From Pseudomonadota bacterium (GTDB lineage: Bacteria > Pseudomonadota > Alphaproteobacteria > Micropepsales > Micropepsaceae): a stretch of DNA of 34,102 nt. The notes below the pieces were generated by a model that did not search any database, was not told where the DNA came from, and was given only the letters and a program-made list of their open reading frames with translations. Below are positions 1 through 15,596 of the stretch, piece after piece (position 1 is the first letter of the stretch; each line of letters starts with the position of its first letter). The translations under genes were made by a program, and so were the position numbers. The stretch is taken from assembly GCA_018242085.1 (NCBI GenBank), contig JAFECO010000690.1:1-34102 (forward strand), in the 5' to 3' direction.

Positions 1-2028
1 GTGACGGAGTTGGGCATCACCGATCCTGCGTTCCGGGATTTGCTCCAGGCGCATGGCGTGACGGGCCTGGCCGGGGTGCCGCACAGCTATGGCCTGATGG
101 AGCGATGCGGCCTGCTGGAAAACCTGCCTGCGAATGTGACGACACTGACGCAGGCCGGCGGATGCATGGCGCAGGATCTTGCCATGCGGGTAGCCGCGCG
201 GGCCCACGGGATGGGGGCCCGGCTCTTCATCATGTATGGGCAGACCGAGGCCACCGCACGCATCGCCTATCTCCGTCCCGAACTGTTGTCGCGATATCCC
301 GGCGCCATCGGTCAAGCCGTCCCGGGCGGCGAGATCTGGCTGGAGAATGAGAGTGGCGCGCGCGTCGCCACCGGCGAGGCGGGCGAGCTTATCTATCGCG
401 GTCCCAATGTGATGATGGGCTATGCGAGCGAGCGGCGGCATATGGCCGACCCGCCAGGCCCCGATGTGCTGCGCACCGGCGATCTGGCGATCGAGATCGA
501 GCCCGGTATCTTTCGCATCGTCGGTCGCAAAAGCCGCTTTGTGAAGCCGTTCGGCTTGCGCATCGGGCTGGACGACCTGGAAGCCCGGTTTCACGAGGCC
601 GGAGCCGAAGCCTTCGCCGCGGGCGACGATGCCCTGGTGGTGATCGCTGCCGCCACCCTTGGGGATCTCGACAAGTCGCGGCGGGCGCTGGTTGCGCTGG
701 ATCTGCCGGACGACCTGTTTGCATTCATCCAACTCTCCGAGATTCCGCGGCTTCCGGGCGGCAAGGTTGACTATCCGGCCATTCTCTTCGCCGGTCGCGC
801 CGGCAAAGCTCCGATGAATCCCGCAACGGCGAATCCGATCGAGACGGTGGAGCAATATTACCGGCGGTTGGCGCGCGGCGCCCCCTTGGCGGATTCCGAC
901 AGCTTCGACAGCCTGAACGGGGATTCCCTCAGCTATGTCCAATGCGCGATCGCCATCGAGGAAGCGCTGGGCGAGACGCCGGACGGGTGGGAGAAGCTTT
1001 CTCTTGCGCGCTTGCGGGCGCTGGCGCGAGCCAATATGGCCCCACCCACCACGAATTGGCGCTTGATGTCGCTGGAAAGCGATATTGTCGTGCGCTGCCT
1101 GGCCATCACGCAAATCCTGTTTCAGCACGCCTTGGATAACATGCAAGGCGGTGCCGACTTGTTGATGATCCTGTCCGGCTTCAGCTGGGCGAGATTCCAG
1201 CAGACGCGCCTCCTGGCGGGCGAATCCGGTGGCGCGTTCATGGATTTCGCCCGGCGCTATCTGGTCATTTATCTCGGGATCATGCTCGCGGTTTTCGCCA
1301 TCAATCGGAAGATCGCCTGGTCGCATCAGTTGTTTGTCAGTACCTTTTTTGGCGATTGGGGCGGGATCCTCAACACTTATTGGTTCATCGAAAGCCTGAC
1401 CTGGTGTGTTGCCCTGATCTGCCTGGTTCTGGCCGTGCCGCCGGTCCGCGAATTCGCCGCGCGCCGGCCCGGGCTTTTCAGCCTTGTCTTTGTGGGTGCC
1501 GCCCTGGCGATCCGGTTGATCGGCGGTTTGATGCTCGACGCGCCCGCGCACCTGTTTCGCAGTCCGGACCAGATGCTGATTTATTTCGCCGCGGGTTGGG
1601 CGATAGCACTCGCCGGATGGGAGTTGCGCCTGGCTTTGTTCGCCATGCTTGGGGCCGTTTCGGCCATGGCGTGGGGTTGGAACGACACCCATGTGCTGGC
1701 GATTGTTGTTGCGGCCGTGCTGATCGTGTTTGTGCGCCGCGTCTCGATGCCGAGATTGGCTGGCCGGGTCGTGGGCGCGATCGCCGCGGCGAGTTTCTAC
1801 ATCTATCTTTTCAATATTTTTCCCGTGTACCTGACCGATATCGTCCTGCATGCCAGGTTCGGAAAATTCTGGCTCGCCCAGATCGCCGCCTCGCTGGCGC
1901 TGGGGATTGCCGTATCCCTGCTCCTCTCGCAGTTCGATAAGATTTGGGATTGCGCGCGCGCATGGACCACACTTGCCGGCAGGCGCATGGCCTTGGCCGC
2001 AGCATCCGTGGTGAGGCCGCTGCGTTAA
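1..2028 (+). CDS. Adenylation-carrier-acyltransferase-3 fusion protein (5' end missing)
   Basis: The N-terminal third is the C-terminal half of an AMP-forming acyl-activating enzyme: YGQTE (79-83), RTGDL (158-162), GRKSRFVKPFGLRI (175-188) and the catalytic-lysine motif LPGGKVDY with K255. A carrier domain follows, with the phosphopantetheine site LNGDSL (Ser309). The rest is a multi-helix membrane domain. It opens with an R-x10-H motif (R365, H376) and ILSGF (390-394), the signature of acyltransferase-3 (OafA-type) proteins. Inference: an acid is adenylated, loaded on the carrier and passed by the membrane domain to an acceptor in or beyond the inner membrane, much as DltA, DltC and DltB work together. 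The reading frame is open to base 1 and the usual N-terminal AMP-binding region is absent, so the GTG at 1 is probably internal and the gene starts upstream. Substrate and acceptor are unknown. Confidence 0.85.
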   Translation: MTELGITDPAFRDLLQAHGVTGLAGVPHSYGLMERCGLLENLPANVTTLTQAGGCMAQDLAMRVAARAHGMGARLFIMYGQTEATARIAYLRPELLSRYPGAIGQAVPGGEIWLENESGARVATGEAGELIYRGPNVMMGYASERRHMADPPGPDVLRTGDLAIEIEPGIFRIVGRKSRFVKPFGLRIGLDDLEARFHEAGAEAFAAGDDALVVIAAATLGDLDKSRRALVALDLPDDLFAFIQLSEIPRLPGGKVDYPAILFAGRAGKAPMNPATANPIETVEQYYRRLARGAPLADSDSFDSLNGDSLSYVQCAIAIEEALGETPDGWEKLSLARLRALARANMAPPTTNWRLMSLESDIVVRCLAITQILFQHALDNMQGGADLLMILSGFSWARFQQTRLLAGESGGAFMDFARRYLVIYLGIMLAVFAINRKIAWSHQLFVSTFFGDWGGILNTYWFIESLTWCVALICLVLAVPPVREFAARRPGLFSLVFVGAALAIRLIGGLMLDAPAHLFRSPDQMLIYFAAGWAIALAGWELRLALFAMLGAVSAMAWGWNDTHVLAIVVAAVLIVFVRRVSMPRLAGRVVGAIAAASFYIYLFNIFPVYLTDIVLHARFGKFWLAQIAASLALGIAVSLLLSQFDKIWDCARAWTTLAGRRMALAAASVVRPLR

Positions 2029-2123: not shown

Positions 2124-2885
2124 CTAATTTCGCGGCAGATAGACTTCGACGGCCGAGCCTTGGCCTTTGACGCTGGAGAGTATGATGTCGCCCTTGCATT
2201 GGCGCACAAAGCCGGCGCATTTCGCAAGTCCCCAGCCCTGATGCCCCTTGCGGGTGGAGAAGAGCGGGTCCAGCGCGCGCCGCATCACATCGGCGCACAT
2301 GCCGCTGCCGGTGTCGTGCACGCTGAACCGGATATAGTTTCCGGCCGGCAATTGGCGGATCTGATTATCCTGCAGCGTCTCCTGACTTGTGCAGATGGCG
2401 ATCCTGCCGCGATGGTCCATCGCGGTGACGGCGTTCTTGATCAGCTCCTCCACCATGCTTTGGAATTTTTCCTGGTCCGTCGCCACCATGCAGCTTGTGG
2501 GTTCCAGTGCAAACGCGACCTCGATGCCGCGCAGAAGCGAGTGTTTCAGGTGCCCGATGGTCGTGATGACGCTGCGGTTAAGATCGAATTGGGTGACATT
2601 GAGCTTCTGGCGCCCCGCAAAGCTTTGGAGCTTTTGAGACAGTTCGATGCCGCGATTGGTGGTGCGAATGATGTCGCTGACCAGGCCGGCATTCTGGTCT
2701 TGCTTGTTCAGGCTCGATTCCAGAAGCGACATATTGCCGGCGACGGCCGTGAAAATATTGTTCAGCTCATGCGCGACCGTGCCGGCCAACTGCACCAGCG
2801 CGTCTACTTTTTCTCTGTCCGGCATGGCGTTTTGTTCCCGAAGGAACGCGTCTAATGCCAACCGCCGGAAAATTCGCTGACGCAT
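2124..2885 (-). CDS. Soluble sensor histidine kinase without sensor domain
   Basis: A 253-residue transmitter with no membrane segment and almost no N-terminal input region. The H-box is AGTVAHELNN with H39 as the phosphorylated histidine. The ATP-binding lid shows EELIKNAVTAM (N-box), VHDTGSGM (G1), DPLFSTR (F-box) and GWGLA (G2). The H-box type matches NtrB/CckA-like kinases. The gene lies 33 bases after the NarL-type regulator and is probably cotranscribed with it, so the two are likely partners. With no sensor domain, it may read its signal through another protein, for example the nearby membrane hybrid kinase. An alternative start is the internal Met21 (MPDREK); the Shine-Dalgarno sequence is weak for both. 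Confidence 0.85.
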   Translation of the reverse strand: MRQRIFRRLALDAFLREQNAMPDREKVDALVQLAGTVAHELNNIFTAVAGNMSLLESSLNKQDQNAGLVSDIIRTTNRGIELSQKLQSFAGRQKLNVTQFDLNRSVITTIGHLKHSLLRGIEVAFALEPTSCMVATDQEKFQSMVEELIKNAVTAMDHRGRIAICTSQETLQDNQIRQLPAGNYIRFSVHDTGSGMCADVMRRALDPLFSTRKGHQGWGLAKCAGFVRQCKGDIILSSVKGQGSAVEVYLPRN

Positions 2886-2897
2886 CGGGCCAGGTGG

Positions 2898-2915
2898 CCT
2901 ATACAGAAGTATAGG
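2898..2915. other. Perfect 7-bp hairpin between regulator and kinase genes
   Basis: CCTATAC (2898-2904) and GTATAGG (2909-2915) are exact inverted copies around the tetraloop AGAA (UUCU in the minus-strand mRNA). The hairpin fills half of the 33-base gap between the regulator stop and the kinase start. There is no T-tract, so it is more likely an mRNA processing or translation-control element, or a DNA operator, than a terminator. Confidence 0.5.
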
Positions 2916-2918
2916 AGG

Positions 2919-3536
2919 TCAGCCCAATCCTGCTTTGACGGCCTTCACGGCCGCTTCGGCGCGGCTTTTCACGTTCATTTTGCGGAACAGGTTGCGCAAA
3001 TGGAGCTTGATGGTGACCTCAGCCAGCCCCAGCTCGCGGGCGATTTCCTTGTTGGACCGGCCCAGGGCCACGCCGTGCAACACTTCTTTTTCCCGCGCGC
3101 TCATATTGGCGAGCCAGGCTGGACTGCCATGGGCAGCGGTCCCATTCAGCAGCACCTCGGTCGGAATGCTGGTGCCACCGGCCAAAAGCAGCTGAACGGT
3201 GTGGGCGAAATATTCGGAATTCGAGGTTTTGGGAATATAGCCGCGCACGCCGGCGCGCGCCGCGGCCAGCACCTCCTGGTTGCCGACGACACCTGAGACA
3301 ACGGCAAGCGGTGTGGTGGGAAAATCTCTGACCAGCTCGGCCAATGCATCGGCCGACATGCCCGGCATGTGATAGTCCATCAGGATCAGGTCGAAGTGTG
3401 GCGACTGCTCAGCCGCGGCGCGCAACTCATCGAGTGATGCAACTTCCTTGATATGCGCTTCCCGATAAAGCCGCTTGATCTGCAAGGCCGCGGCCTCGCG
3501 ATATAGCGGGTGATCGTCGGCAATCAGGATGCGCAT
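2919..3536 (-). CDS. NarL/LuxR-family response regulator
   Basis: A 205-residue two-domain regulator. The receiver has the acidic pair DD (7-8), the phosphoacceptor D54 in LILMDYHMPGM and the conserved lysine in GYIPK. The C-terminal LuxR-type helix-turn-helix runs from about residue 142, with MSAREKEVL, NKEIARELGL, TIKLHLRNLFRKM and NVKSRAEA. I chose the ATG at 3536 because GGAGAGG sits just upstream; a TTG four codons earlier lies within that ribosome-binding sequence. It should activate or repress transcription when phosphorylated. Its likely kinases are the soluble kinase just downstream or the hybrid kinase upstream. Confidence 0.9.
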   Translation of the reverse strand: MRILIADDHPLYREAAALQIKRLYREAHIKEVASLDELRAAAEQSPHFDLILMDYHMPGMSADALAELVRDFPTTPLAVVSGVVGNQEVLAAARAGVRGYIPKTSNSEYFAHTVQLLLAGGTSIPTEVLLNGTAAHGSPAWLANMSAREKEVLHGVALGRSNKEIARELGLAEVTIKLHLRNLFRKMNVKSRAEAAVKAVKAGLG

Positions 3537-3552
3537 GCTCCTCTCCAAACGA

Positions 3553-3590
3553 CCTCGCCATAATATCTTATCAAAAATCCAAACTAGGCT
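3553..3590 (-). promoter_or_regulatory. Possible promoter of the regulator-kinase pair
   Basis: The 73 bases between the hybrid kinase stop and the regulator start are strikingly AT-rich for this genome. On the minus strand they read a TATTAT -10-like hexamer (3560-3565) with a poor -35 (CTAGTT) about 16 bases upstream. A start near 3553 would leave a short leader carrying the strong GGAGAGG ribosome-binding site. Composition is the main evidence. Confidence 0.35.
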
Positions 3591-3609
3591 ACGCAGTGTT
3601 ATATTTCAG

Positions 3610-5955
3610 TTACTGGGATCCGGGTCGCGGCCTGAGCGCTTGCGCGATCGCTTGAATATCAACAGGCTTGTAGAGCACCGCGTCCGCGCCACCCGCCAGC
3701 GCCTGAGCTTCTGTCATTTCGGCAAGATTTCCCGTGCACAGGACCGCGCGTAAGCAAGGCGCCACCCGCTTGGCCTCCTGAATCAGCTCCATGCCGGACA
3801 TCAACGGCATCTGCTGGTCGGTGAGCAATGCGTCGAACGCGTCCGGGTCTTCCTCGATCGCCGCCAGCGCTGGGAACGGGCTCTGCACCGCGACGGTGGC
3901 AAAGCCCAGGCGCTCCAGGACGATCGACAGCATGTCGGCCATCTCCGTCTCATCGTCCACGATCAGCACGCGCCAGCCTTCGCCGGTGACGGGCATGGTG
4001 GCGGCAGCCATCCCTTCTTCGATCAGCGGCAGGAAAATATCGAAGCTGGTGCCGCTCCCCATCTCGGATCTCACATGGCAGAACCCGCCATGGGAGCGTA
4101 TCACGCCATGCACCACGGCCAGTCCCAGCCCGGTGCCGCGCAACCGCCCCTTGGTGGAAAAGAAGGGTTCGAACATCCGGTCCAAGGTTTCCGGCGCCAT
4201 GCCATGGCCGGTGTCGCGGACGGTCAGCAAAGCATAAGAAAGGTTCGGGCGCGGCTCGCCGATCAGCCGTTCGGTGGGCGCATTGGAGAATTTGCGCAAA
4301 CGCTCGATCTCGTCGCTTCGGGCAATCCGCGCATCGATCTCCACCGATCCTCGGCCATCCAGCGCATCGCGCGCATTGGTGGCCAGATTGGTGATCATCT
4401 GTCCCACTTGAATTTCATTGCCGCGCACCAGAAGAACGGCCGACGGCGCTTGGATCTCCAGCTTCGTGCCGGGACGCATGCCGGGCCCCAGAAAGTCGCC
4501 GCAGATTTCCACGGCCCGGCCCAAATTGACCACGCCATGGCTGACCTCGCGCGTCTCGGCAAAGGTCATGATCTGCTCGACCATTTCCTTGCCCCGCCTG
4601 GAGGCGCTCAGGATCCGCTGGGCGAATTCGTGGTTTTCGGATCCAGGGACGCTGTCCTGGGCGATGAGAACCGCGAACCCGGTAATGGCGCCCAGGATAT
4701 TGTTGAAGTCGTGCGCCACGCCGCTGGCAAGCTGGCCGATCGCCTCCAGCTTGGCCGCCTGTTTCAGGCGGCTTTCCAGCCGCAGCCGTTCGGCATCGGC
4801 GGAATTGCGGTCGGTAACGTCGATCAGCCGCGCGATGAGCCCGCCGGTGGCCAGGCGGCTGCGGCGAATTTCCAGATCGCGGCCGCCCAGGCGAACCGCA
4901 TGTTCGTCGTGCTCGGTCAGAAGGGGAATGGCGGGCCGCGGAAATATCGAACCCTCCGGACCCTGCCCGGCCAGACGTTTCGCGGCCTGGTTGGCGTATT
5001 GCACCGATCCGTTCCGGTCTTCGGTGTAAATGCCGTCATCGGTCAGATCCAGCGCCGCCAACGTGTCCGCGCTTTTTTGCGACGAAAGCTGCAGCGCCAC
5101 CAGGTTCGCCACTGCGCGCGCGAACGCTGTCTCCTCCTCATTCCAGCGATAGGGGACATGTTTCGCGAAAATGATGACCCCGCTCTGGGTCGCATCCTGG
5201 AAGGCTTCGGACGAAAGGGTCGCCCGCACGCCATAGCAGCGGGCCAGGCGCTGCACGATGGCTTCGCCAGGGGCCTGCTCGGTATCGTCGATGGCGACCG
5301 TCAATTCATTCTGCAATCGCATTTTGTGCTGGGGATCGGCCTCCAGAACCGTTCCCGCCACCGGCAGGTTGGGCGCCGCCACCTTGTGCCAGGCCTGCAG
5401 CACCGTGGTGCTGCGATCGTCGCGGTTGCGCAGGCCGATAATGGCGAAGCTGCAATCCAATGCCTGGGCGCCGATGCGGCAGATGGATTCCAGCCGGCAG
5501 TCGAGGCTGATGTCGGTCAAAAGACATTCGCGCATCATGCCGGCCAGCGCGGTCTTGTGGCGCTGCAAGGTGGCTTCGCTAGTCTGGATGCGGCTTTCCA
5601 GCTCCATATGGCTTTGCATGATCAACGCCACCACCCAGATGGAAGCCAGGGCAAAAGCCCGGTTGGCCCACATGCCCGCCACCGAAACGCCTGCGTCCGG
5701 GCCCAGTACCGCGCCCGCGAATGTCAGGACCGTGGTGACGATCGCGCACACGATCATCGCGCGCTTGCCGAACCGGTTGGTGAGCGCCACCACCGCCGAA
5801 TAGCCGATCCCGTCCATGACGCCGCGCGGGTTCGTGATATCGATGTAAAACAGACCGCCGCAGGAGAGAATCGCTCCCGCCGCGATCGCTGCGTCTGCCA
5901 GCCGCTGCGCCATGAAACGGCTGTGCGCCGGCATGAATAAGGGTTCAGACGTCAT
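3610..5955 (-). CDS. Membrane hybrid sensor histidine kinase (GAF, PAS-like, kinase, receiver)
   Basis: A 781-residue kinase. Four hydrophobic segments lie near the N-terminus (about 20-38, 48-60, 66-87, 95-114). A GAF-like domain follows (about 150-290), then a PAS-like domain (about 298-380) and the transmitter, with H-box ASGVAHDFNNILGAITGF (H415), N-box TNLATNARDAL, G1 DTGHGM, F-box FEPFFSTK and G2 GTGLGLAVVHG. A C-terminal receiver (about 660-778) has D713 in LLTDQQMP and a conserved lysine in LYKP. This is a CckA-like layout. The start is supported by AGGGGGC just upstream. The receiver suggests a phosphorelay needing an HPt protein; the HPt-like protein at 23991-24464 is a speculative partner. 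The gene is 73 bases upstream of the regulator-kinase pair on the same strand. Confidence 0.9.
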   Translation of the reverse strand: MTSEPLFMPAHSRFMAQRLADAAIAAGAILSCGGLFYIDITNPRGVMDGIGYSAVVALTNRFGKRAMIVCAIVTTVLTFAGAVLGPDAGVSVAGMWANRAFALASIWVVALIMQSHMELESRIQTSEATLQRHKTALAGMMRECLLTDISLDCRLESICRIGAQALDCSFAIIGLRNRDDRSTTVLQAWHKVAAPNLPVAGTVLEADPQHKMRLQNELTVAIDDTEQAPGEAIVQRLARCYGVRATLSSEAFQDATQSGVIIFAKHVPYRWNEEETAFARAVANLVALQLSSQKSADTLAALDLTDDGIYTEDRNGSVQYANQAAKRLAGQGPEGSIFPRPAIPLLTEHDEHAVRLGGRDLEIRRSRLATGGLIARLIDVTDRNSADAERLRLESRLKQAAKLEAIGQLASGVAHDFNNILGAITGFAVLIAQDSVPGSENHEFAQRILSASRRGKEMVEQIMTFAETREVSHGVVNLGRAVEICGDFLGPGMRPGTKLEIQAPSAVLLVRGNEIQVGQMITNLATNARDALDGRGSVEIDARIARSDEIERLRKFSNAPTERLIGEPRPNLSYALLTVRDTGHGMAPETLDRMFEPFFSTKGRLRGTGLGLAVVHGVIRSHGGFCHVRSEMGSGTSFDIFLPLIEEGMAAATMPVTGEGWRVLIVDDETEMADMLSIVLERLGFATVAVQSPFPALAAIEEDPDAFDALLTDQQMPLMSGMELIQEAKRVAPCLRAVLCTGNLAEMTEAQALAGGADAVLYKPVDIQAIAQALRPRPGSQ

Positions 5956-6048
5956 ACTGCCCCCTGTCTCGGCAAGGTTATCACATCACGCCCGGAATGG
6001 CACGATTGCCGTCATCCGGAGTGCGGCTTGGACCAGCCGGGGACGAGG

Positions 6049-6066
6049 CCGGTGCCGGCGGACCGG
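6049..6066. terminator. GC-rich hairpin after the chemotaxis operon
   Basis: CCGGT (6049-6053) pairs with ACCGG (6062-6066) around an eight-base GC-rich loop, ten bases beyond the stop codon of the last gene of the operon. There is no T-run, so if it ends transcription it would need Rho or act as a 3'-end stabiliser. The 120-base gap to the hybrid kinase gene shows no other clear signal. Confidence 0.25.
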
Positions 6067-6075
6067 TGGGGCCCG

Positions 6076-7134
6076 TCAGCCATTAAGTGCCGACAGCATG
6101 GGCGCGTCGTCCTCCTCCACCTGCAGATACTCGATGCCCTGGCGCATGTCGGACATGATGAAGGCCGCGCGGCTGCCCACGCCGCCGCTTGTGTTGGGAA
6201 ACCGTTCGGTCCAGGCCTGCATCTTCACGCTCAGCGCGCACAGCGCCCCGCCGATCGAGGTGTGGTAATTCGAGATCAGAGATTCGATCTTTTTGAATTT
6301 GTCCGCGGAGAGATCGCGCCACATATCGTTGGTGCTGCGCTCGAAGCTCTCGATCTTTCCGGTGATATTGGAAAGCCTGCCATTGATGGTGGATTCGAGC
6401 ATGCCGACCATTTTCATCAGGGACACATCCTGTGCCAGCTGGCGATTGGCTTTCACCAGGGCGATCCCGTCCATGAAGCTTTGGACCTGGGGCAGAAGCT
6501 GATCCAGGCAGCTGCGGTAATAGGAAAGCGACATGAAGATATCGCCATAATCTTCGAGAAATTTCGGGATGCGCTCGATCGGAATGCCCAGCCGGTCGGC
6601 CATCATGGCAAGCCGCGCCCGCACGGCTTCCGCATTTTCGGCGCGGAACATGCCCAATATGTCCTGAAAGCCCGCCCCTTTGGTGTCCTTGCCGAAAATC
6701 TCCGCCACCAGCGGGCGCGTGAAATGGGCCATGTAGCTGCTCAAGGACGCGGTCTTGGCCGCCGACAGGGTGAGCGCCGACTTGTCCGTGATTGCGATCT
6801 GATGTTCCCTGAGCAGGATCCTGAGGCTGTAGACATCGAAGCTCGGCAGGGTGCTGATGGTCTGCAGCAGTTTCACATCGGGATGGGGCGGGATCTGCTC
6901 CAGCGCCAGGAATTTCGCCACCGAGAGCACATCCAGCTGCCCGCGGCCGCAGCCCACGCCGCTGAACAATTCCACCACCGATTCCAACCGCGAATTCTTC
7001 ACCATGCGCGCGCGCAGAAAGATCTTGGTCTGGACCGGCAGGATCGAGATCGCCAGCGTATGCAGCGAATCCCGATCCTGATCCGAAAGTTGACCGTTCT
7101 CGCCTTCGTGCTGGGTCTGTGCCGCGGCGCTCAT
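6076..7134 (-). CDS. Protein of unknown function, last gene of the chemotaxis operon
   Basis: I do not recognise this 352-residue protein. It has no signal peptide or membrane segment and looks soluble and mostly helical. Its C-terminal third, with stretches such as SNITGKIESFERSTNDMW and LSADKFKKIESL, resembles a long helical-bundle region. The start codon follows the cheZ stop by three bases (TAG AAA ATG) with little ribosome-binding sequence of its own, so translation is probably coupled to cheZ. That placement suggests a role with CheZ or CheY, for example in localisation or in setting phosphatase activity. No catalytic motif is visible. It could also be a structural or polar scaffolding protein. 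Confidence 0.8.
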   Translation of the reverse strand: MSAAAQTQHEGENGQLSDQDRDSLHTLAISILPVQTKIFLRARMVKNSRLESVVELFSGVGCGRGQLDVLSVAKFLALEQIPPHPDVKLLQTISTLPSFDVYSLRILLREHQIAITDKSALTLSAAKTASLSSYMAHFTRPLVAEIFGKDTKGAGFQDILGMFRAENAEAVRARLAMMADRLGIPIERIPKFLEDYGDIFMSLSYYRSCLDQLLPQVQSFMDGIALVKANRQLAQDVSLMKMVGMLESTINGRLSNITGKIESFERSTNDMWRDLSADKFKKIESLISNYHTSIGGALCALSVKMQAWTERFPNTSGGVGSRAAFIMSDMRQGIEYLQVEEDDAPMLSALNG

Positions 7135-7137
7135 TTT

Positions 7138-7716
7138 CTAGCTGAGAGTCTCGAACAGTGCGTCGATATCGCTCTGGCTGCTGGCGTTCTTCATGAGCTG
7201 CGGACCGTTGAGCAGCGCCTCATCGCCTTGCGGGCCGGCATTCGGCGGCTGCGGCAGGGAGCCGAAAGCCTCGGTCAGCGAGGCAAGCTTGACTTCCAGG
7301 GACAACAGCACGCCCACCACCTTGGTGATGCGCTGTCCGGTGATGTCCTGGAATGCGCTGGCTTCGTAGATCTTGGTGACGGCTTCCATCAAAGCGCCGT
7401 TGGCGGGCGGTCCCAAGGTGGCGGCGACGCTCTCGATCGCTTCGGCGGCATCCATGATGCTGCCGGCGGCGCGCGCGGTCTCGGTGATGATCTCCTCAAG
7501 TTCGTCGGCAGTGTTGCCGAACAGGGGGGTATTGCCGCCCTGGCGCAGCGCGCCGATTTCGCTGCGCGTGGTCCGGATATGGTCGGACAGATATTGCAGC
7601 ACGCTGACCAGCGTGTCCTTCTGCGGGGACTGCAGCACCCGCAGTTCCGCGATCACGCGGTCCAAGAAGCCGTGCGCGTCCAGCAGACGCGACGCGTTGT
7701 TGAATTGGGGCTCCAT
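7138..7716 (-). CDS. cheZ: CheZ-family CheY-P phosphatase
   Basis: A 192-residue helical protein with the CheZ active-site motif FQDITGQRITKVV, which carries the Asp and Gln (D124, Q128) equivalent to D143 and Q147 of E. coli CheZ. It ends in a short acidic-hydrophobic helix, QSDIDALFETLS (181-192), as expected for the C-terminal peptide by which CheZ grips CheY. A flexible Pro/Gly-rich linker (about 153-175) joins the two. Its role would be to dephosphorylate CheY-P in the cytoplasm. It starts 7 bases after the cheY stop with GAGG as ribosome-binding site. The family fold is a long four-helix dimer, and the length fits. Confidence 0.88.
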   Translation of the reverse strand: MEPQFNNASRLLDAHGFLDRVIAELRVLQSPQKDTLVSVLQYLSDHIRTTRSEIGALRQGGNTPLFGNTADELEEIITETARAAGSIMDAAEAIESVAATLGPPANGALMEAVTKIYEASAFQDITGQRITKVVGVLLSLEVKLASLTEAFGSLPQPPNAGPQGDEALLNGPQLMKNASSQSDIDALFETLS

Positions 7717-7723
7717 CGGCGCC

Positions 7724-8113
7724 TCACGCCGTCACGCCGCAGACGCTGGCGATCTTGGCCCGCAGCGTGTCGGCATTGAAGGGTTTGACGATATAGTTGG
7801 AGACGCCGGCTTGCTTGGCGGCAATGACATTCTCGGTCTTGCTCTCGGCCGTGACCATGATGAACGGAATGTGCCTGAGGCGCGCGTCGGCGCGGACCTT
7901 GCGCAGCAGGTCCAGCCCGGTCATCGGCGCCATGTTCCAGTCCGAGATGATCAGGTCGGGCGGAGACTTCTGCATCAAATGAAAAGCGGTGTCGCCGTCA
8001 TTGGCTTCCTCGACATTTTCGATTTCGAGCTGGCGCAACAGGTTGCGCAGGATGCGCAGCATGGTTGTGTAGTCGTCGACGATGACGACGCGCATGTTCT
8101 TGTTGAGGCTCAT
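7724..8113 (-). CDS. cheY: CheY chemotaxis response regulator (copy next to cheZ)
   Basis: A stand-alone receiver of 129 residues with the acidic pair D13-D14, phosphoacceptor D58 in LIISDWNMAPMTG, T88 and the conserved K110 in YIVKPF. The SDWNM block is typical of true CheY proteins that bind the flagellar switch. AGGAG lies 6 bases before the ATG and overlaps the cheR stop region. Its position directly before cheZ suggests it is the main substrate of that phosphatase. The second CheY in this operon, at 10044-10427, has a different sequence and may act as a phosphate sink or on another target. Confidence 0.93.
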   Translation of the reverse strand: MSLNKNMRVVIVDDYTTMLRILRNLLRQLEIENVEEANDGDTAFHLMQKSPPDLIISDWNMAPMTGLDLLRKVRADARLRHIPFIMVTAESKTENVIAAKQAGVSNYIVKPFNADTLRAKIASVCGVTA

Positions 8114-8122
8114 CTCGTTCTC

Positions 8123-8974
8123 CTATGAAGCGGCGGAAAGCTGACGGACGAAGGGCTTGGGCGGTCCGGCATGGCCGTAGACGCCTTTCAGGCCCGGAAG
8201 CGCGGCAAGCGAGTTGCACAGGCCGAAGACGCTCTCCGCGCCGCCCAGAAGCAGCGCTCCGTCAGGGACGATGCGGCGGGTGATGCCGTTCAGGATCTGG
8301 GTCTTGGTCGGCTGGTCGAAATAGATCAGCACATTGCGGCACAAGACGATGTCGAACTGGCCGAGAGAGGAAAAATCCTCCAGCAGGTTCAACGGGCGGA
8401 AGGCCACGGTCCGGCGAATTTCAGGCTTGATCCGCCAATTGGGCTCTTCCTGATCGAAGTGGCGCACCAGCATCTGGATCGGCAGGCCGCGCTGGACCTC
8501 GAAAGTGGAATAGAGGCCGGTGCGGGCGCGGTCGAGCACGGTGGGCGACAGATCGGTGGCGATGATTTCGATTCGCCAGCCGGCCAGGATGGGGAAATTG
8601 TCCTTCATCATCATGGCCAGCGAATAGGGCTCCTGGCCGGTCGAGCAGGCCGCGCTCCAGATGCGCAAGGACCGCGAACCGGCGCGGCGCTCGATCAGGC
8701 GGGGGATCAGGGATTGGCGCAGCGTCTCGAAGGGATGGTTGTCGCGGAAGAACGAGGTCTCGTTGGTGGTCATGGCGTCGACCACCTTGTCCTTCACCGC
8801 ATGGGGACCCGGCTGGCGCAGAATGTCGGCGAGGCCGGACAGGCCCGCGACTTTGTGCTCGCGCAGGATCGCCGATAGCCGCGTTTCCAACAGATAGGTC
8901 TTGTCCTCGCTGATGATCAGCCCCGATCGATCCTTGAGGAATGACGCGATGACGGAAAAATCCTTGCTGCTCAT
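8123..8974 (-). CDS. cheR: CheR chemoreceptor glutamate methyltransferase
   Basis: A 283-residue SAM-dependent methyltransferase that adds methyl groups to receptor glutamates for adaptation. It has the all-helical N-terminal domain, the family motif NETSFFRD (71-78), the SAM-binding motif IWSAACSTGQEPYS (105-118), an acidic residue in IIATDLSP and the CRNVLIYFD motif. There is no TPR extension. The receptor encoded in the same operon lacks a C-terminal NWETF-type pentapeptide, so CheR probably docks without tethering. The ATG overlaps the cheB stop (ATGA), indicating coupled translation. Confidence 0.95.
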   Translation of the reverse strand: MSSKDFSVIASFLKDRSGLIISEDKTYLLETRLSAILREHKVAGLSGLADILRQPGPHAVKDKVVDAMTTNETSFFRDNHPFETLRQSLIPRLIERRAGSRSLRIWSAACSTGQEPYSLAMMMKDNFPILAGWRIEIIATDLSPTVLDRARTGLYSTFEVQRGLPIQMLVRHFDQEEPNWRIKPEIRRTVAFRPLNLLEDFSSLGQFDIVLCRNVLIYFDQPTKTQILNGITRRIVPDGALLLGGAESVFGLCNSLAALPGLKGVYGHAGPPKPFVRQLSAAS

Positions 8975-10047
8975 GGTGCTACGCTTTCGAACAGCGAGGC
9001 GACATGGCTCGCGATTTTGGGGAGGGGCAGGATCGCCGAGCAGATGCCGGCCTGCGCCACCGCTCCCGGCATGCCCCAGACCACGCTGGTGGCCTCATCC
9101 TGGGCGATCACCGGGCTGCCCGCGGCTGCGATGGCCTTGGCGCCGCCGCAGCCGTCGCTGCCCATGCCGGTGAGCATGATGGCGCAGCTTTCCGCGCCGA
9201 ATATCTGCGCGACGCTGCGGAACAAGGGATCCACCGAAGGGCGGCAGAAATTCTGGGGCGGGGTCTGCGACAGGCGGGCAGCAAAGCCTGCGCCTTCGCG
9301 CACAACTTCAAAATGATAGTCGCCGGGCGCCAGATAGATATGGCCCGGTTTGATCTCCATGCCATTGGCGGCTTCGCTGGTGGGCCGGCCGCTTGCCCGC
9401 TCGATATGCTGGGCGAGCACGGTGGTGAAGGTCGCCGGCATGTGCTGGGCAATCACGATCGGGCAGGAAACCTTCGGCGAAAGCGCGCCCAGAAGCGCGA
9501 GCAGCGCCTGGGGGCCGCCGGTGGAGCTGCCGATGGCTATGATGCGGGGCGGGCGCATCGTCTTGCCGCGCGCCACCATGTTGAGTTTGGCGATCGGCTG
9601 GGCCGACGCATCGGGCGAGGGTTTGGGCTTTTTTGCCTGGCCCAGCGCGACCACTTTATGGATCAGGTCGCGGTGGAATTCCTCGTTGGCGTTCAGCCGG
9701 TCCGTGGTCGGCTTGGCGATATAGTCGGCCGCGCCCAGCGCCATGGCGCGCAGGCTGACCGCCGCGTTGCGCTGGGTCAGCGTGGAAGCCATGATGATCC
9801 GGGCGCCGGGATTTGCCTGCTGCAGTTTCGGCAGCGCGGTCAGCCCGTCCATCACCGGCATTTCGATGTCCAGGATGACCACGTCCAGTGCGCGCTTGGC
9901 GGCTTGCACCACCGCCATCTCGCCATTGCTGCACGACGCGACGACGTCGATCCTGGGATCGCCCTTCAGCGTCCGGGTGATCAATCCGCGCACAATGGCG
10001 GAATCATCCACCACCATCACACTGACCGGTGTGGCGGATCCGTTCAT
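8971..10047 (-). CDS. cheB: CheB receptor methylesterase/deamidase
   Basis: A 358-residue protein with a regulatory receiver (D14-D15, D60 in VVILDIEMPVMDG, lysine in YIAKP), a linker of about 40 residues and the catalytic domain. The catalytic triad matches the family: S175 in IGSSTGGPQ, H202 in IAQHMP and D298 in LTGMGSDG. It removes methyl groups from receptors after phosphorylation by CheA, opposing CheR. It shares four-base overlaps with the cheY upstream and cheR downstream, so the three genes are translated as one block. Confidence 0.96.
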   Translation of the reverse strand: MNGSATPVSVMVVDDSAIVRGLITRTLKGDPRIDVVASCSNGEMAVVQAAKRALDVVILDIEMPVMDGLTALPKLQQANPGARIIMASTLTQRNAAVSLRAMALGAADYIAKPTTDRLNANEEFHRDLIHKVVALGQAKKPKPSPDASAQPIAKLNMVARGKTMRPPRIIAIGSSTGGPQALLALLGALSPKVSCPIVIAQHMPATFTTVLAQHIERASGRPTSEAANGMEIKPGHIYLAPGDYHFEVVREGAGFAARLSQTPPQNFCRPSVDPLFRSVAQIFGAESCAIMLTGMGSDGCGGAKAIAAAGSPVIAQDEATSVVWGMPGAVAQAGICSAILPLPKIASHVASLFESVAP

Positions 10048-10427
10048 GCGCGTTCCACCAGGCCGACTTGCACCAGCTTGTCGAGCAGAACATCGCGATC
10101 ATAAGGCTTCATGATGTATTCGTCGGCGCCCGCTTCCAGGGCTTCGCGGATCTTGGCCAGCCCATTCTCGGTGGTGCACATCACCACGATGGGACGGGGG
10201 TTCAGATCCATCGCGCGCAGCGACCTGAGACAGGTGATGCCGTCCATCTCCGGCATGTTCCAGTCCAGAAGGACAAAGTCCGGGACCGTGGTGCCGCAGA
10301 ATTCCACGGCCGCAAGGCCATGCTCGGCTTCCGCCGTGCGCAGACCCAGGCTGGATATGATGTCCATGGCGACGCGGCGGATGACGCGGGAATCGTCGAC
10401 CACCAGGCAAAGCGGTTTGTTGTTCAC
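10044..10427 (-). CDS. cheY: CheY-like response regulator (copy after cheA)
   Basis: A 127-residue single-domain receiver: D11-D12, phosphoacceptor D55 in VLLDWNMPEMDG, T85 and K107 in YIMKPYD. It begins with GTG overlapping the cheA stop (GTGA) and has a strong AGGAGG just upstream. Placed between cheA and cheB, it should take phosphate directly from CheA. Its sequence is clearly different from the CheY next to cheZ, so the two likely have distinct jobs, such as motor binding against phosphate sink. Which is which cannot be read from sequence alone. Confidence 0.92.
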   Translation of the reverse strand: MNNKPLCLVVDDSRVIRRVAMDIISSLGLRTAEAEHGLAAVEFCGTTVPDFVLLDWNMPEMDGITCLRSLRAMDLNPRPIVVMCTTENGLAKIREALEAGADEYIMKPYDRDVLLDKLVQVGLVERA

Positions 10428-13099
10428 GAGGCCCTCCTGAGTTCGGCGCGGTTCTGGCCGCGCGCCGCGACTTGGCGAAGGGCGCGGGCCAGATTCTCCG
10501 GCAGGTGCATCTGGTCGGACTTGGCGACATATTCGTCGAAGCCCGCTTCATGGCCGGCCTGGATGTCGTCATCTCCGGCATGGGAAGAAAGCGCGATCAG
10601 GGGCACTTCACCCCAGCGCGGATCGTTGCGGATCGCGCCGGCCAGCGCCAAACCGTCCATGTTCGGCATCTCGATATCGCTGATGATCACGTCGAACTGG
10701 CGGCCGTCCTCGCGCAGCTTGAGCGCTTCCACGCCGTCCGTGGCGGTGGCGACCTTCCAATTGTCCGAGGCCAGGAGCGGCGTGACCAGATTGCGGAAGA
10801 AGGGGCTGTCGTCCACCAACAGCGCATGCCGCAAGGATTTGTGCTGGGCGACGACCTCGAACCAGTCGGTGAAGGCCTGGGTCAGGAAATGGCCGATATC
10901 CACCACATCCACCGCCTTGCCGGCGATGATGGCGCTGCCCAAAAGGCCCGGGCGCGCCGAAGACAGTTCGATCGCCATGCGGTCGCGCACAATGTCGACC
11001 ACTTCGTCCACCACAAGACCCATGCTGCGGCCATTGTCGCTGAACACCAGCGTGTCCTGCCGGCCATCGTCCTTCCAATGATGCGCGGGATCGAAAGGCA
11101 CCAGCGGCACCAGATGGTTGCGATACTGCACGACATGACGGCCGCCCACATTCTCGATGGTGGCCGCTTCCAGGCTCTCGATGCGCGACACCAGCTCCAG
11201 CGGGATGGCCTTGAGTTCGCCGCCGCCGGTGCGGAACAAGAGGAAGGACGCCTGGTCGCCGCCCAGACCGTCGGAAGACGCTCTGCGGTCCTGGCTGCTC
11301 TCGGCATCGGCGCTTTCGATCTGGCCGGCTGCCCCGGACAGGCCGCTGGGATCCAGGATCATGATCACGCTGCCGTCGCCCAGGATGGTATTTCCCACAT
11401 AGAAGCGGGTGCCGCGCAGGATCGGCGCCACCGGCTTGACCACGATTTCCTCGGTGTCGAAGACCCGGTCCACGATGATGCCGAAGGTGTGGGCGCCCAT
11501 TTGGGCAACCACCACGAAACGGTCATGACCGGTGCCGGACGCCTCCAGCCCCAGCGCGCCGCGCAGCGATACCAGCGGCAGGAGCCGGTCGCGCAGGCGC
11601 AGGACCGGCGAGGTGTTGATGGTTTCGATGCGGACTTCGGAATGGTTGGAAACGCCCACCAGCTCGACGACATTCAGCTGGGGAATGGCAAAGCGCTGTC
11701 CGGCCGCCTCGACGATGAGGGCCGAGACGATGGCGAGGGTCAACGGAATCTTGATCAGGAAGGTGGTGCCGCGCCCCGCCACCGAGTTGAGCTCGATGGT
11801 CCCGCCGATGCGTTCGATATTGGTGCGCACCACGTCCATGCCGACGCCGCGGCCCGAAACGCTGGTCACCTTTTCGGCGGTCGAGAAGCCGGGCCGGAAA
11901 ATGAACTGCAGGATCTGCTGCTCGTTCATGCCGGCGATGGCGGCCTCGGTTGCCAGCCCGTTGGCGATGGCTTTCTGGCGGATGCGCTCCACATCCAGTC
12001 CGCGCCCGTCATCGGCGATGCGGATGAAGATGTGGCCGCTCTCATGATAGGCATTGAGCGCGATGGTGCCGGTTTCGGGTTTGCCCGCCGCCAGGCGACG
12101 CGCGCCGTCTTCGATGCCGTGATCGGCGGAATTGCGCACCATATGGGTGAGCGGATCCTTGATCATCTCCAGCACCTGGCGGTCGAGTTCGGTCTCCGCG
12201 CCCTGCATGGAAAGTTCGATTTTCTTGCCGGTGGCGACCGCCAGGTCGCGCACGATGCGGGGCAGCTTGTTCCAGGCATTGCCGATGGGCTGCATGCGCA
12301 TGCGCGTCACCCCGTCCTGCAGGTCGGAGGTGATGTGGCTGAGCCGCTGCAGCGGCACTTTGAACTCATTATCCTTCTGGACGCGCTGGGTCTGCATCAG
12401 CTGGTTGCGGGTCAGCACCAGTTCGCTGATCAAGGTCATCAGATTTTCGATGACATCCACATTCACGCGAATGGAGGAGGCGGTGGTCGCGGGCTCCTTT
12501 GTTTCACTCTGGGGCGCGGGCGAAGCGGATTCCGGGGCCGGCACGGCCGCGGGCGCGGCGGGAACAGGCTCGGGTTTGGCGGCGGGAGACGGGATATCGC
12601 TTTGCTGGATTATGGCTTCGGCCACTTCGGCCAGAAGTTCGGCGGCGACAGGGAACCCGCCATCGCCGAAGCTGGGAGCATGGTCTTCCACCGGCGCCGC
12701 GTCCGGTTCATGGACCGGCGCTTCGCCGCCGGCCAAGGCGTCGATCTCCGCGATCAATTCCGCGTCGCTGCCCGCGGGTTCGGCGCCCGTGCTTTCCATT
12801 TCCGCAAGCAAGGTGCGGATCCGGTCGATCGCCTTGAGAATGAGCGTGACCGCGCGCGGGGTGACATCCAGTTCGCCGTCGCGGAATTTTCCCAGAATAT
12901 TTTCGCCCGCATGGGCAACCGCGCCAAGCCGGGGCAGTCCCAGAAAGCCGCATGTTCCCTTGATGGTGTGCATCAGGCGGAAAATGTTGCTCAAGATGGT
13001 GACGTCGGAGGTCTCGCGCTCGAAGCGGACAAGCTCGACGTCCAGCACCGCGAGGCTTTCGGTGGTTTCGGCAAGGAATTCCTGAAGCAGATCGTCCAT
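10424..13099 (-). CDS. cheA: CheA hybrid histidine kinase with two CheW domains and a receiver
   Basis: An 891-residue kinase starting at MDDLLQEF, where GGGAGC precedes the ATG. Domains in order: HPt with H44 in LMHTIKGTCGF; a Pro/Ala/Glu-rich linker (about 125-208) with no recognisable P2 CheY-binding domain; dimerisation helices (210-270); ATPase with HMVRNSADHGIE, ADDGRGLD and GRGVGMDVV (319-425); a first CheW-like domain (about 450-590); a second CheW-like domain (about 617-745); and a C-terminal receiver with D763-D764, D808 and K860. Classical CheA has one CheW-like domain and no receiver. The receiver may be a phosphate sink or an autoregulatory switch, and the second CheW domain may change array geometry. 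It begins 16 bases after cheW. Confidence 0.95.
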   Translation of the reverse strand: MDDLLQEFLAETTESLAVLDVELVRFERETSDVTILSNIFRLMHTIKGTCGFLGLPRLGAVAHAGENILGKFRDGELDVTPRAVTLILKAIDRIRTLLAEMESTGAEPAGSDAELIAEIDALAGGEAPVHEPDAAPVEDHAPSFGDGGFPVAAELLAEVAEAIIQQSDIPSPAAKPEPVPAAPAAVPAPESASPAPQSETKEPATTASSIRVNVDVIENLMTLISELVLTRNQLMQTQRVQKDNEFKVPLQRLSHITSDLQDGVTRMRMQPIGNAWNKLPRIVRDLAVATGKKIELSMQGAETELDRQVLEMIKDPLTHMVRNSADHGIEDGARRLAAGKPETGTIALNAYHESGHIFIRIADDGRGLDVERIRQKAIANGLATEAAIAGMNEQQILQFIFRPGFSTAEKVTSVSGRGVGMDVVRTNIERIGGTIELNSVAGRGTTFLIKIPLTLAIVSALIVEAAGQRFAIPQLNVVELVGVSNHSEVRIETINTSPVLRLRDRLLPLVSLRGALGLEASGTGHDRFVVVAQMGAHTFGIIVDRVFDTEEIVVKPVAPILRGTRFYVGNTILGDGSVIMILDPSGLSGAAGQIESADAESSQDRRASSDGLGGDQASFLLFRTGGGELKAIPLELVSRIESLEAATIENVGGRHVVQYRNHLVPLVPFDPAHHWKDDGRQDTLVFSDNGRSMGLVVDEVVDIVRDRMAIELSSARPGLLGSAIIAGKAVDVVDIGHFLTQAFTDWFEVVAQHKSLRHALLVDDSPFFRNLVTPLLASDNWKVATATDGVEALKLREDGRQFDVIISDIEMPNMDGLALAGAIRNDPRWGEVPLIALSSHAGDDDIQAGHEAGFDEYVAKSDQMHLPENLARALRQVAARGQNRAELRRAS

Positions 13100-13115
13100 G
13101 GTAGTGCTCCCAGAG

Positions 13116-13592
13116 TCAGGCTTCGGTTCCGATCGCCAAGAGGCGATCGATATGCAAGGCAACCAGGAGGCCCCGATCGGTGCGGTAGACGGCGTCGGCC
13201 ATGTTGCGCCAGACCGCGTCCAGGGTGGCCGGGTTGCCTTCGCGCAAGCTGCGCGAAAGGGTGATCACATCGCCGACGGAATCCACGAAGAGGGTGTAGG
13301 ATTCGCCGCGACATTCCACGGTCACGCACATGCCGCCGCTGCCGGCTTCCGCCTTGGGCAGGGAAAGATGCTTGCGCATGTCGATCACGGTGACGATGCG
13401 GCCGCGCAGGTTGATCAGGCCTCGCACTTCCGGGGGTCCGCCCGGCACCGGCGCGATTTCTTCGGGGATCAGGATGTCCTGGACGCGGGTCACCGGCACG
13501 CCGAACAACTGGTCGGCCACGGTGAAGGTTACGAAAGCATCCGCACCGTCTTCGCTGCGGCTGGCGGGGGCAACAAGGGTCTCTGTGCTCAT
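13116..13592 (-). CDS. cheW: CheW receptor-kinase coupling protein
   Basis: A 158-residue CheW with the paired SH3-like fold sequence: FVTFTVADQLFGVPVTRVQDIL at the start of the first half, the conserved core PPEVRGLINLRGRIVTVIDMR (about 53-73), and a second subdomain ending in LLVALHIDRLL. It links receptor tips to CheA in the signalling array. AAGGC precedes the ATG. It is separated from the receptor gene upstream by 128 bases that hold a large inverted repeat, while the genes downstream follow with almost no gaps. Confidence 0.94.
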   Translation of the reverse strand: MSTETLVAPASRSEDGADAFVTFTVADQLFGVPVTRVQDILIPEEIAPVPGGPPEVRGLINLRGRIVTVIDMRKHLSLPKAEAGSGGMCVTVECRGESYTLFVDSVGDVITLSRSLREGNPATLDAVWRNMADAVYRTDRGLLVALHIDRLLAIGTEA

Positions 13593-13616
13593 GATGTCTG
13601 CCTTGATCAGGAAGTG

Positions 13617-13696
13617 GGGGAAGAAACAGGCCGGGCGCTATCAAGCCTTGCGGGTGGGAAGCTTGCTTGGATGCTTCACCGGCCTGTTCCTTCCCC
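13617..13696. repeat. Long inverted repeat between the receptor gene and cheW
   Basis: GGGGAAGAAACAGGCCGG (13617-13634) and its inverted partner at 13679-13696 match at 17 of 18 positions, separated by a 44-base loop. The loop can form a smaller hairpin from CAAGC (13642-13646) and GCTTG (13661-13665 or 13665-13669). The mRNA would fold into a very stable stem 24 bases upstream of the cheW start. There is no T-run, so it is better read as an mRNA processing or stability element, or partial attenuator, than an intrinsic terminator. Confidence 0.7.
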
Positions 13697-13720
13697 GGAG
13701 CCTCGCCCGGATGAGTGCCG

Positions 13721-15409
13721 TTAGGCGGCTTTCACCTGGGTGAGGAAGGTCTGCACCAGCTCGCGCATGTCGCCCGATTGCTTGGACAGCGTGCGTGCGG
13801 CCGTCAGCACCTGGTTGGCGCCGGCGCCGGTCGAGTTGGCCGCTTCGGTGACGCCACCGATATTGGCCGAGACTTCCTGGGTGCCCTTGGCGGCTTCTTC
13901 CACATTGCGGGCGATTTCCTGCGTGGCGGCGCCCTGTTCTTCCACCGCCGCGGCGATGGTGGTGGCAATCTGGTCGATCTCGCCGATGGTTTTGCCGATC
14001 GAGGCGATGGCGTTGACCGCATTCTGGGTCGCGCCCTGCACGCTGGTGATCTGCGTGCCGATTTCCTCGGTGGCCTTGGAGGTCTGGGTGGCGAGGTTTT
14101 TGACCTCGGCCGCGACCACGGCAAAGCCCTTGCCCGCTTCGCCCGCGCGCGCCGCCTCGATGGTGGCGTTGAGCGCAAGCAGATTGGTCTGGTCGGCGAT
14201 CGCGTTGATCAGGGCGACGATCTCGCCGATCTTCTGCGAAGCGTTGAGCAGGCCCTGGACCATTTCGTTGGCCTTTGCGGCCTCGGTCACCGCGGTGGCG
14301 GCGATCTGGCTGGAATGGCTGACCTGGCGTCCGATTTCCGCGATCGAAGAAGAGAGTTCTTCCGCGGCGGAAGCGACGGTCTGCACATTGGCCGCGCCCT
14401 GTTCGGAGGCCGCCGCGACGGCGCTGGCCTGCTTGGTGGCTTCCTCGGCGGTCGCGCTCATCGACTGGGCGCTGGCTTCCATCTGGGTGGCCTGGCTGGC
14501 GACGCCCTGAACGACGCCCTGAACCTTGACGTCGAAGTCCCGCGTCAGCTGGTCCACCAGGGCCGCACGCTTGGCGGTGGCGCGCTGGGCTTCTTCCTGT
14601 TCCGCTTTCAGGCGGTCGGATTCGATCATGCTGTCCTTGAAGACCTGCACGGCCTTGGCCATCTGACCCACTTCGTCCTTGCGCTCGGAGCCGTTGATCT
14701 CGGTGGTGAGGTCATGCTGCGCCAGCCGTCCCATCGCACCGGTCATGGCGCGGATCGGCGTGGAAACGCCCGACACGATCAGCCAGCCCATCGCCACGCA
14801 CAGCGCGGCGGCAGCGCCCAGCACAACCATGATCAGCATGCGCGAGCTTGCATATGTATCATCCGCGCTCTTGACCTGCGCATCGCTGGCCTTGCGCTGA
14901 TAAGCCTTGTCTTCGTTCAGCAGGTCCTGGACCTTGGTGAAGGTGGCGCGCAACTCGTTGGTATAATAATCGGTCGCCTGTTCGTTCTTGGCGGCTTCCG
15001 AAAGCTCCATCAATTTCTCGTTCTCGGCGACATAGTCAGTCCAGGCCGCATGCAGCTTGTCGGCGACGCCGCGCTCATAGCCGGCATCGACCGTGGCGAC
15101 ATATTTTTCCCAACCCTGGTTCGCCTGCTCCAGCGCTTCGGCCAGCTTCTTTTCTTCTTCCTTCTTGCCGGCGAGGTCGCTGGCCAGCATCTGCGAGGCC
15201 TGAACCTGGCGATAGCGGACGGCGCCATAGGCGAAATCACCCAGGCCATCGATGGCGACCAGATAATTGGACGCGATGGTTTGGGCATTGTCGTTGACCG
15301 CCGAAAGGCGGGTGATCGAGAACGTGCCCAGCAATATTGTGACTGCGAGGACGACGGCAAAGGCCGTCATGACCTTGCTGCGGATGGATAAATTCTGAAA
15401 CCAGCTCAT
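13721..15409 (-). CDS. Methyl-accepting chemotaxis protein
   Basis: A 562-residue transmembrane receptor from MSWFQNLS, with GGAGAA before the ATG. TM1 (13-34), a helical periplasmic sensor of about 155 residues (four-helix-bundle type), TM2 (191-213), HAMP (about 212-265) and a long signalling coiled coil. The conserved hairpin tip lies at about 405-435, with DQTNLLALNATIEAARAGE. It ends in QTFLTQVKAA with no NWETF-type tether for CheR/CheB. As first gene of the operon it is expected to be made in excess over the signalling proteins. The ligand is unknown; a small sensor of this type often binds small molecules directly or senses through a periplasmic binding protein. Confidence 0.94.
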   Translation of the reverse strand: MSWFQNLSIRSKVMTAFAVVLAVTILLGTFSITRLSAVNDNAQTIASNYLVAIDGLGDFAYGAVRYRQVQASQMLASDLAGKKEEEKKLAEALEQANQGWEKYVATVDAGYERGVADKLHAAWTDYVAENEKLMELSEAAKNEQATDYYTNELRATFTKVQDLLNEDKAYQRKASDAQVKSADDTYASSRMLIMVVLGAAAALCVAMGWLIVSGVSTPIRAMTGAMGRLAQHDLTTEINGSERKDEVGQMAKAVQVFKDSMIESDRLKAEQEEAQRATAKRAALVDQLTRDFDVKVQGVVQGVASQATQMEASAQSMSATAEEATKQASAVAAASEQGAANVQTVASAAEELSSSIAEIGRQVSHSSQIAATAVTEAAKANEMVQGLLNASQKIGEIVALINAIADQTNLLALNATIEAARAGEAGKGFAVVAAEVKNLATQTSKATEEIGTQITSVQGATQNAVNAIASIGKTIGEIDQIATTIAAAVEEQGAATQEIARNVEEAAKGTQEVSANIGGVTEAANSTGAGANQVLTAARTLSKQSGDMRELVQTFLTQVKAA

Positions 15410-15596
15410 TTTCTTCTCCAAGGCGGATGGCAGGAGAAGCAATAGGGGAGGCGCTTGGCCCCGGTTTTTCGGCCCTGCGTCGGATTGTTTCAGCTTGTGT
15501 CGAAGAGGCCACTATCCTGTGGCATTTAGGGCTTTTGTAACAAATTGGCACTATTTCCTGTCCCGTTAACCTTGCTGCTGCCTTGGGGGGCACGAA
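15410..15596. promoter_or_regulatory. Divergent control region of the chemotaxis operon and an OmpR-type regulator
   Basis: These 187 bases lie between two divergent starts and must hold promoters for both. Two inverted repeats are visible: GCCAC-N6-GTGGC (15508-15523) and TTTGT-A-ACAAA (15534-15544). I see no convincing sigma-54 or sigma-28 promoter, and sigma-70-like hexamers are poor on both strands. The repeats could be operators, for instance for the adjacent regulator. Confidence 0.45.

Follow-up and report, generated by a model that had tools for sequence, protein, structure and literature searches.

The Dlt system (DltA, DltC, DltB, DltD) combines adenylation, a carrier thioester and transfer by a membrane acyltransferase. 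AlmEFG, which glycylates the lipid A of Vibrio, is a Gram-negative case with an adenylation enzyme, a carrier and a membrane-side transferase, and ε-poly-L-lysine synthetase has adenylation (A) and carrier domains on one membrane protein. The MBOAT-SGNH pairs PatA/PatB also take an acyl group across the membrane to envelope polymers (PMC12148441). Acyltransferase-3 (AT3) proteins such as OafB, OatA and Oac, whose usual partner is SGNH, share an R-x10-H motif and approximately ten transmembrane (TM) helices. In reviews the AT3 donor is held to be acyl-CoA and not a carrier protein, and the AT3 fusions that they mention are to SGNH and alanine racemase, together with some eukaryotic ones (PMC9558356, PMC9833829). 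Both R-x10-H and a second motif, RXXR, are essential in ordinary AT3s, and in simulations of OafB, Arg74 of RXXR touches the 3′-phosphate of CoA (PMC9833829).

The protein described here resembles Dlt in these steps but is a single polypeptide, with an AT3 domain instead of a DltB-type MBOAT and without the Asp contact of the D-Ala type. AlmEFG differs from it in being three proteins with a transferase of another family and an amino acid substrate, and ε-poly-L-lysine synthetase in having another membrane region and chemistry, without AT3. PatA/PatB lack the fused activation and carrier domains, and unlike OafB, OatA and Oac, for which acyl-CoA is the presumed donor, the family of the window protein has a fused carrier and has lost RXXR. 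The closest curated family to its A domain is the exosortase A-associated acyl ligase TIGR03098 (ligase_PEP_1), although a complete orthologue (L007) scores 154.1 bits against a cut-off of 592.35, and no exopolysaccharide (EPS) cluster of the kind described below was seen beside the gene; both the window contig and the L007 sequence stop just upstream of it.

The window is the whole stretch of DNA analysed, 34,102 nucleotides long, and its first letter is base 1 of contig C654 in an alphaproteobacterial assembly of 2.8 Mb and 709 contigs. Positions 1–2028 of the plus strand form a single open frame of 675 codons without an internal stop, the 3′ portion of a gene truncated by the contig end (Table 1). 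The sequence-only reading had placed adenylation, carrier and AT3 domains on a single polypeptide here, and this is confirmed by the open frame, the Pfam domains and the presence of S309, R365/H376 and LSGF. The GTG at base 1 was rejected as a start codon and is an artefact, because the contig begins there and L007 extends approximately 195 N-terminal residues further. An overlapping minus-strand ORF (1..1851, 617 aa) was rejected as spurious, since the gene-like codon signature sits in the plus frame (GC3 0.77, GC2 0.48). The minus strand from 2124 to 15442 holds signalling and chemotaxis genes (a histidine kinase, a LuxR-type regulator, a hybrid kinase, CheR, CheB, a CheA-type kinase and a methyl-accepting protein) with no evident link to the fusion gene.

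Table 1. Features of the A-PCP-AT3 gene in the window (PCP, peptidyl/acyl carrier domain).
Feature	Position (nt)	Strand	Remarks
Whole A-PCP-AT3 gene fragment	1..2028	+	~195 N-terminal codons lie beyond the contig end
Adenylation (ANL) domain, C-terminal ~60%	1..786	+	Pfam, alignment, A-domain fold in the L007 model
Peptidyl/acyl carrier domain (PCP), FDSLNGDSLSYV	841..1044	+	S309 is the phosphopantetheine serine, nt 925-927
Acyltransferase-3 (AT3) membrane domain	1066..1935	+	~ten TM helices
R365 and H376 of R-x10-H, in TM1	1093..1095 and 1126..1128	+	
Residue 605, Asn in place of the His of YLxH	1813..1815	+	

The complete orthologue is metagenomic and 93% identical; it occupies L007:285-2897, starts with an ATG at 285 and encodes 870 aa, with the A domain at approximately residues 1–460, the PCP at approximately 478–540 and AT3 at approximately 548–840. 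Through it the full A domain was recovered and its pocket read, as the sequence-only reading had proposed. Window residues S309, R365 and H376 correspond to S504, R560 and H571 of L007. In the window protein AMP-binding is matched at residues 9–141 (Pfam, E=1.9e-17), and ANL motifs A3, A5, A7, A8 and A10 are all present including the catalytic Lys, A3 being read from L007; the window itself has YGQTEA (Y79–A84), TGD (D161), GRKSRFVKPFG (R176, K182) and PGGKVD, with catalytic K255. The A10 lysine (window K255; K450) is invariant across 47 aligned members, as are many A-domain residues. The phosphopantetheine serine, in a GxDS-type motif, is likewise invariant (47/47), as are R560 and H571, so that loss of the carrier serine or of the R/H pair, named beforehand as a sign against the proposed function, is not seen.

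PP-binding (PF00550) scores 13.5 bits in the window protein, under the cut-off of 20.8, and is above it in family members L109, L045 and L086. Acyl_transf_3 (PF01757, cut-off 31) scores 33.6 bits at residues 384–643 of the window protein and 37.1 bits in L007. LSGF, W461 and YLFN are also present in the window AT3, and in both the window protein and L007 the His of YLxH is replaced by Asn, nearly all relatives having His. The weak PCP and AT3 scores of the window protein and this substitution count against the explanation that we favour below. Structure prediction, also proposed earlier, gave confident AlphaFold models (pLDDT 88.6 for the whole L007 protein and 91.0 for AT3). The helix pattern of the AT3 model is compatible with the approximately ten TM helices of the AT3 fold, and its fold search returned nothing significant in the PDB and one viral model (E=2.3e-4); the best matches of the A-domain model include the PltF- and HitB-carrier complexes and DltA. 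The genome encodes one AcpS-type PPTase.

A scan of species-representative genomes returned more than 500 relatives, and nearly all of those examined, the best 80, are single ORFs of 830–950 residues. The three-domain order recurs widely, in Pseudomonadota, Actinomycetota and one Bacteroidota, and with hundreds of relatives the fusion is not rare. On a quick tree of A domains, in which the deep branching order is uncertain, two large branches stand out, one of Actinomycetota and one alphaproteobacterial (mostly Rhizobiales), beside scattered others including the one Bacteroidota; the window's orthologue clusters with Sphingobium SYK-6 (87% support). In 84 of the 93 rows the A domain and AT3 share an ORF, and a stop or separate start between the carrier and membrane parts is thus not general. 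The exceptions are Sphingomonas montana (L083), whose frame is interrupted between PCP and AT3 by a natural split or an error, a frameshift (L112), two SGNH swaps and five A-only proteins. The A-PCP-AT3 architecture is real and old. An orthologue of the window gene is absent from all 36 same-genus genomes, and A-to-AT3 matches at E ≤ 1e-80 occur in only 4 of the class's 289 genomes, counting that of the window; from this patchy distribution the gene is accessory in the window's lineage. Family members in rhizobia and mycobacteria are mostly annotated 'AMP-binding protein', and a literature search that took in few subscription papers found no published account of an AMP-binding/PP-binding/AT3 fusion.

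We compared 44 PCP-fused AT3 domains with 27 AT3 domains from the genomes of relatives, either stand-alone or C-terminally extended; the latter were chosen by Pfam score and lean to good scorers, but the low scorers included keep RXXR. R-x10-H is present throughout (44/44 and 27/27). At the two aligned positions of RXXR, in TM3, Arg is found in 1/44 and 13/44 of the PCP-fused domains versus 25/27 and 27/27 of the comparison domains. The aligned pair is present in at most one of the 44 fused members, and one Arg remains near the site in 36 of them. Loss of RXXR with R-x10-H kept would follow from donation by a tethered pantetheine arm instead of CoA, for which it is indirect evidence. CoA may still be the donor, since R560, whose OafB counterpart has been modelled touching the CoA phosphate, is retained.

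In Photobacterium and Massilia (L085:9440-13513 and L086:9431-13583) the A-PCP module is fused to SGNH and the next gene encodes a DltB-like MBOAT, which makes apt the comparison with Dlt drawn in the sequence-only reading. Judged by gene content these loci would be compact two-gene Dlt-like systems, the exchange evidently swapping the membrane part for the other known transmembrane acyl route. The window's own genome has a paralogue on contig C652 (L006), a 950-aa ligase_PEP_1-PCP-AT3 fusion whose A domain scores 613 bits against TIGR03098, above the cut-off of 592.35. It is surrounded by an EPS cluster (L006:2171-15772) with a DltB-like MBOAT, an FkbH-domain protein, an FMN-dependent alpha-hydroxy-acid dehydrogenase, an XrtA-type sugar transferase and a glycosyltransferase. 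Through these EPS genes the PCP-AT3 module is linked, in this organism, to the modification of exopolysaccharide; the polymer served by the window copy may differ. The cluster perhaps directs a glyceryl- or lactyl-type decoration of EPS. In Rhizorhapis (L008:9377-14259) a second AT3 gene, this one stand-alone, overlaps the fusion gene and precedes that of a GtrA-type glycosyltransferase, an arrangement that points to a glycan acceptor. A stand-alone relative of the A domain at L153:6811-13019 has homologues of LuxE and LuxC, a probable glycosyltransferase gene and an MBOAT downstream, and may put the same adenylation family to another use.

Amino-acid A domains hold the alpha-amino group of their substrate by the residue that is Asp235 in GrsA. 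With the register taken from A-domain alignments, the equivalent position is an invariant Gly (G180, 44/44), leaving the Asp contact absent, and the pocket position equivalent to GrsA-331 is an invariant Arg (window R87, 44/44). These two residues lead us to infer a non-amino acid that may carry another acidic or hydroxyl group, and a non-amino, possibly acidic, substrate is likelier than an amino acid. Of the amino or carboxylic acid originally proposed as the donated group, an amino acid is disfavoured by the Gly that replaces the alpha-amino Asp.

Promoter analyses gave a clue to physiology. For the actinobacterial form, the sequence ahead of the presumed first operon gene was scored at 30 loci against the DtxR/IdeR box consensus, TTAGGTTAGSCTAACCTAA, giving a mean of 13.7/19 compared with 9.6 for random windows, and the total of 411 beat every one of the 300 half-site permutations, the highest of which reached 372; L048 and L073 are among the few loci without a convincing box. 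The palindrome of RirA is TGA-N9-TCA (PMC8822346), and it is found upstream of the gene in 23 of 27 Rhizobiales, although this test was picked after the promoters had been inspected. Control spacings of 3–8 and 10–15 gave 0–3 matches, and random windows a mean of 2.6 and a maximum of 8; the spacing control supports a RirA-type signal in the Rhizobiales. Since many of the box-bearing loci are closely related, their counts are not independent; the box nevertheless stays conserved while the spacer sequence varies. Scans with Fur, Irr and RirA-like consensus sequences over all Pseudomonadota pooled gave no signal, the RirA-like consensus used there being too specific, and TGA-N9-TCA was found in 0/9 Rhodobacterales and 0/16 other Pseudomonadota including L007.

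A ferric-type ABC importer (SBP_bac_6, PhnSTU/Fbp-like), counted where at least two of its three genes lie within approximately 4 kb, accompanies the fusion gene at 24 of 34 actinobacterial loci and in three rhizobia; the Ensifer and Leisingera copies have no importer adjoining. DtxR/IdeR-like box, Fbp-like importer and A-PCP-AT3 gene occur together at L031:5827-11998 and L109:9407-16022, and in several mycobacteria the fusion gene and the importer overlap by a few bases. L107 carries the S. meliloti gene, probably SMc00592, a tag assigned from gene order before its published expression profile was consulted. SMc00592, a 'hypothetical, transmembrane protein', is among 36 swarming-specific genes and has an expression profile like those of the iron genes hmu, fhu and exb (PMC2848241). 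In Rhizobiales and Actinomycetota the family thus appears to answer to two unrelated regulators, and iron starvation there probably lifts the repression of the gene. A low-iron role is well supported as predicted regulation in the two clades, and the product there most likely serves iron acquisition or adaptation of the envelope to low iron.

We consider it probable that the window protein is a self-contained transmembrane acylation enzyme that activates, loads and transfers an acyl group. The cytoplasmic A domain would turn a small carboxylic acid, probably no alpha-amino acid and possibly bearing a second acidic or hydroxyl group, into an acyl-AMP, and the acyl group would be loaded onto the phosphopantetheine arm of the protein's own PCP. 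This arm would enter the AT3 pore from the cytoplasmic side, replacing acyl-CoA, and at the R-x10-H centre the acyl group would be handed on to an acceptor beyond the membrane, for which a polymer or lipid of the envelope is plausible. Transfer from A to PCP to AT3 is supported by the loss of RXXR, the SGNH/MBOAT swap and the EPS-linked paralogue, and the activate-load-pass scheme first suggested for this polypeptide draws good support from conservation, domain swaps and the missing CoA motif. If instead the A-PCP and AT3 halves were independent, with the thioesters feeding another pathway, AT3 taking acyl-CoA and the fusion merely co-localising them, R-x10-H would be retained as observed, and the A-only relative with LuxE and LuxC partners would fit. 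Such independence is improbable in view of RXXR being degenerate in the fused AT3s and kept in the others compared, the retention of the fusion across three phyla, and an SGNH and MBOAT exchange that preserves the transfer logic. Dlt- or Alm-like aminoacylation, in which an amino acid is put on lipid A or a polymer, has the same logic and an A domain distantly related to DltA (E=4.9e-16) in its favour, but the invariant Gly instead of Asp at the GrsA-235 equivalent and the invariant Arg at 331 make it very improbable.

The iron boxes and the ferric-type importer beside many relatives, which were out of view for the sequence-only reading, allow for a siderophore or iron-acquisition role. The protein could be a minimal siderophore (metallophore) enzyme whose AT3 acylates a small soluble acceptor, with the external chelator returned by the Fbp-like ABC importer. 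We rate this as possible but on the unlikely side: the boxes of two unrelated regulators, the importer neighbours in actinobacteria and rhizobia and the co-induction of the probable S. meliloti member with hmu, fhu and exb speak for it, but no further biosynthesis genes were seen adjoining, many copies stand alone with no transporter beside them, the window's orthologue is without an iron box, and the AT3 acceptors known to date are mostly glycans (PMC9558356). A metallophore link by way of methylolanthanin genes proved a false lead. We also put forward, as a speculation that is unlikely as it stands, an iron-starvation system in which the self-charging protein would build an iron-binding group at the outer face, surface-bound or released, that feeds ferric iron to the Fbp-like importer, under control of RirA in rhizobia or DtxR/IdeR in actinobacteria and with carrier-fed AT3 domains.

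The self-contained acylation enzyme that we favour has consequences for AT3 proteins in general. A carrier-fed AT3, if true, would widen the range of groups that can be transferred and make donor specificity testable within one polypeptide. Because the A-PCP module pairs either with AT3 or with SGNH and MBOAT, one activation logic joins two unrelated membrane acyltransferase folds. For a family annotated mostly as 'AMP-binding protein', the iron boxes are a first physiological handle and the first testable clue to its role.
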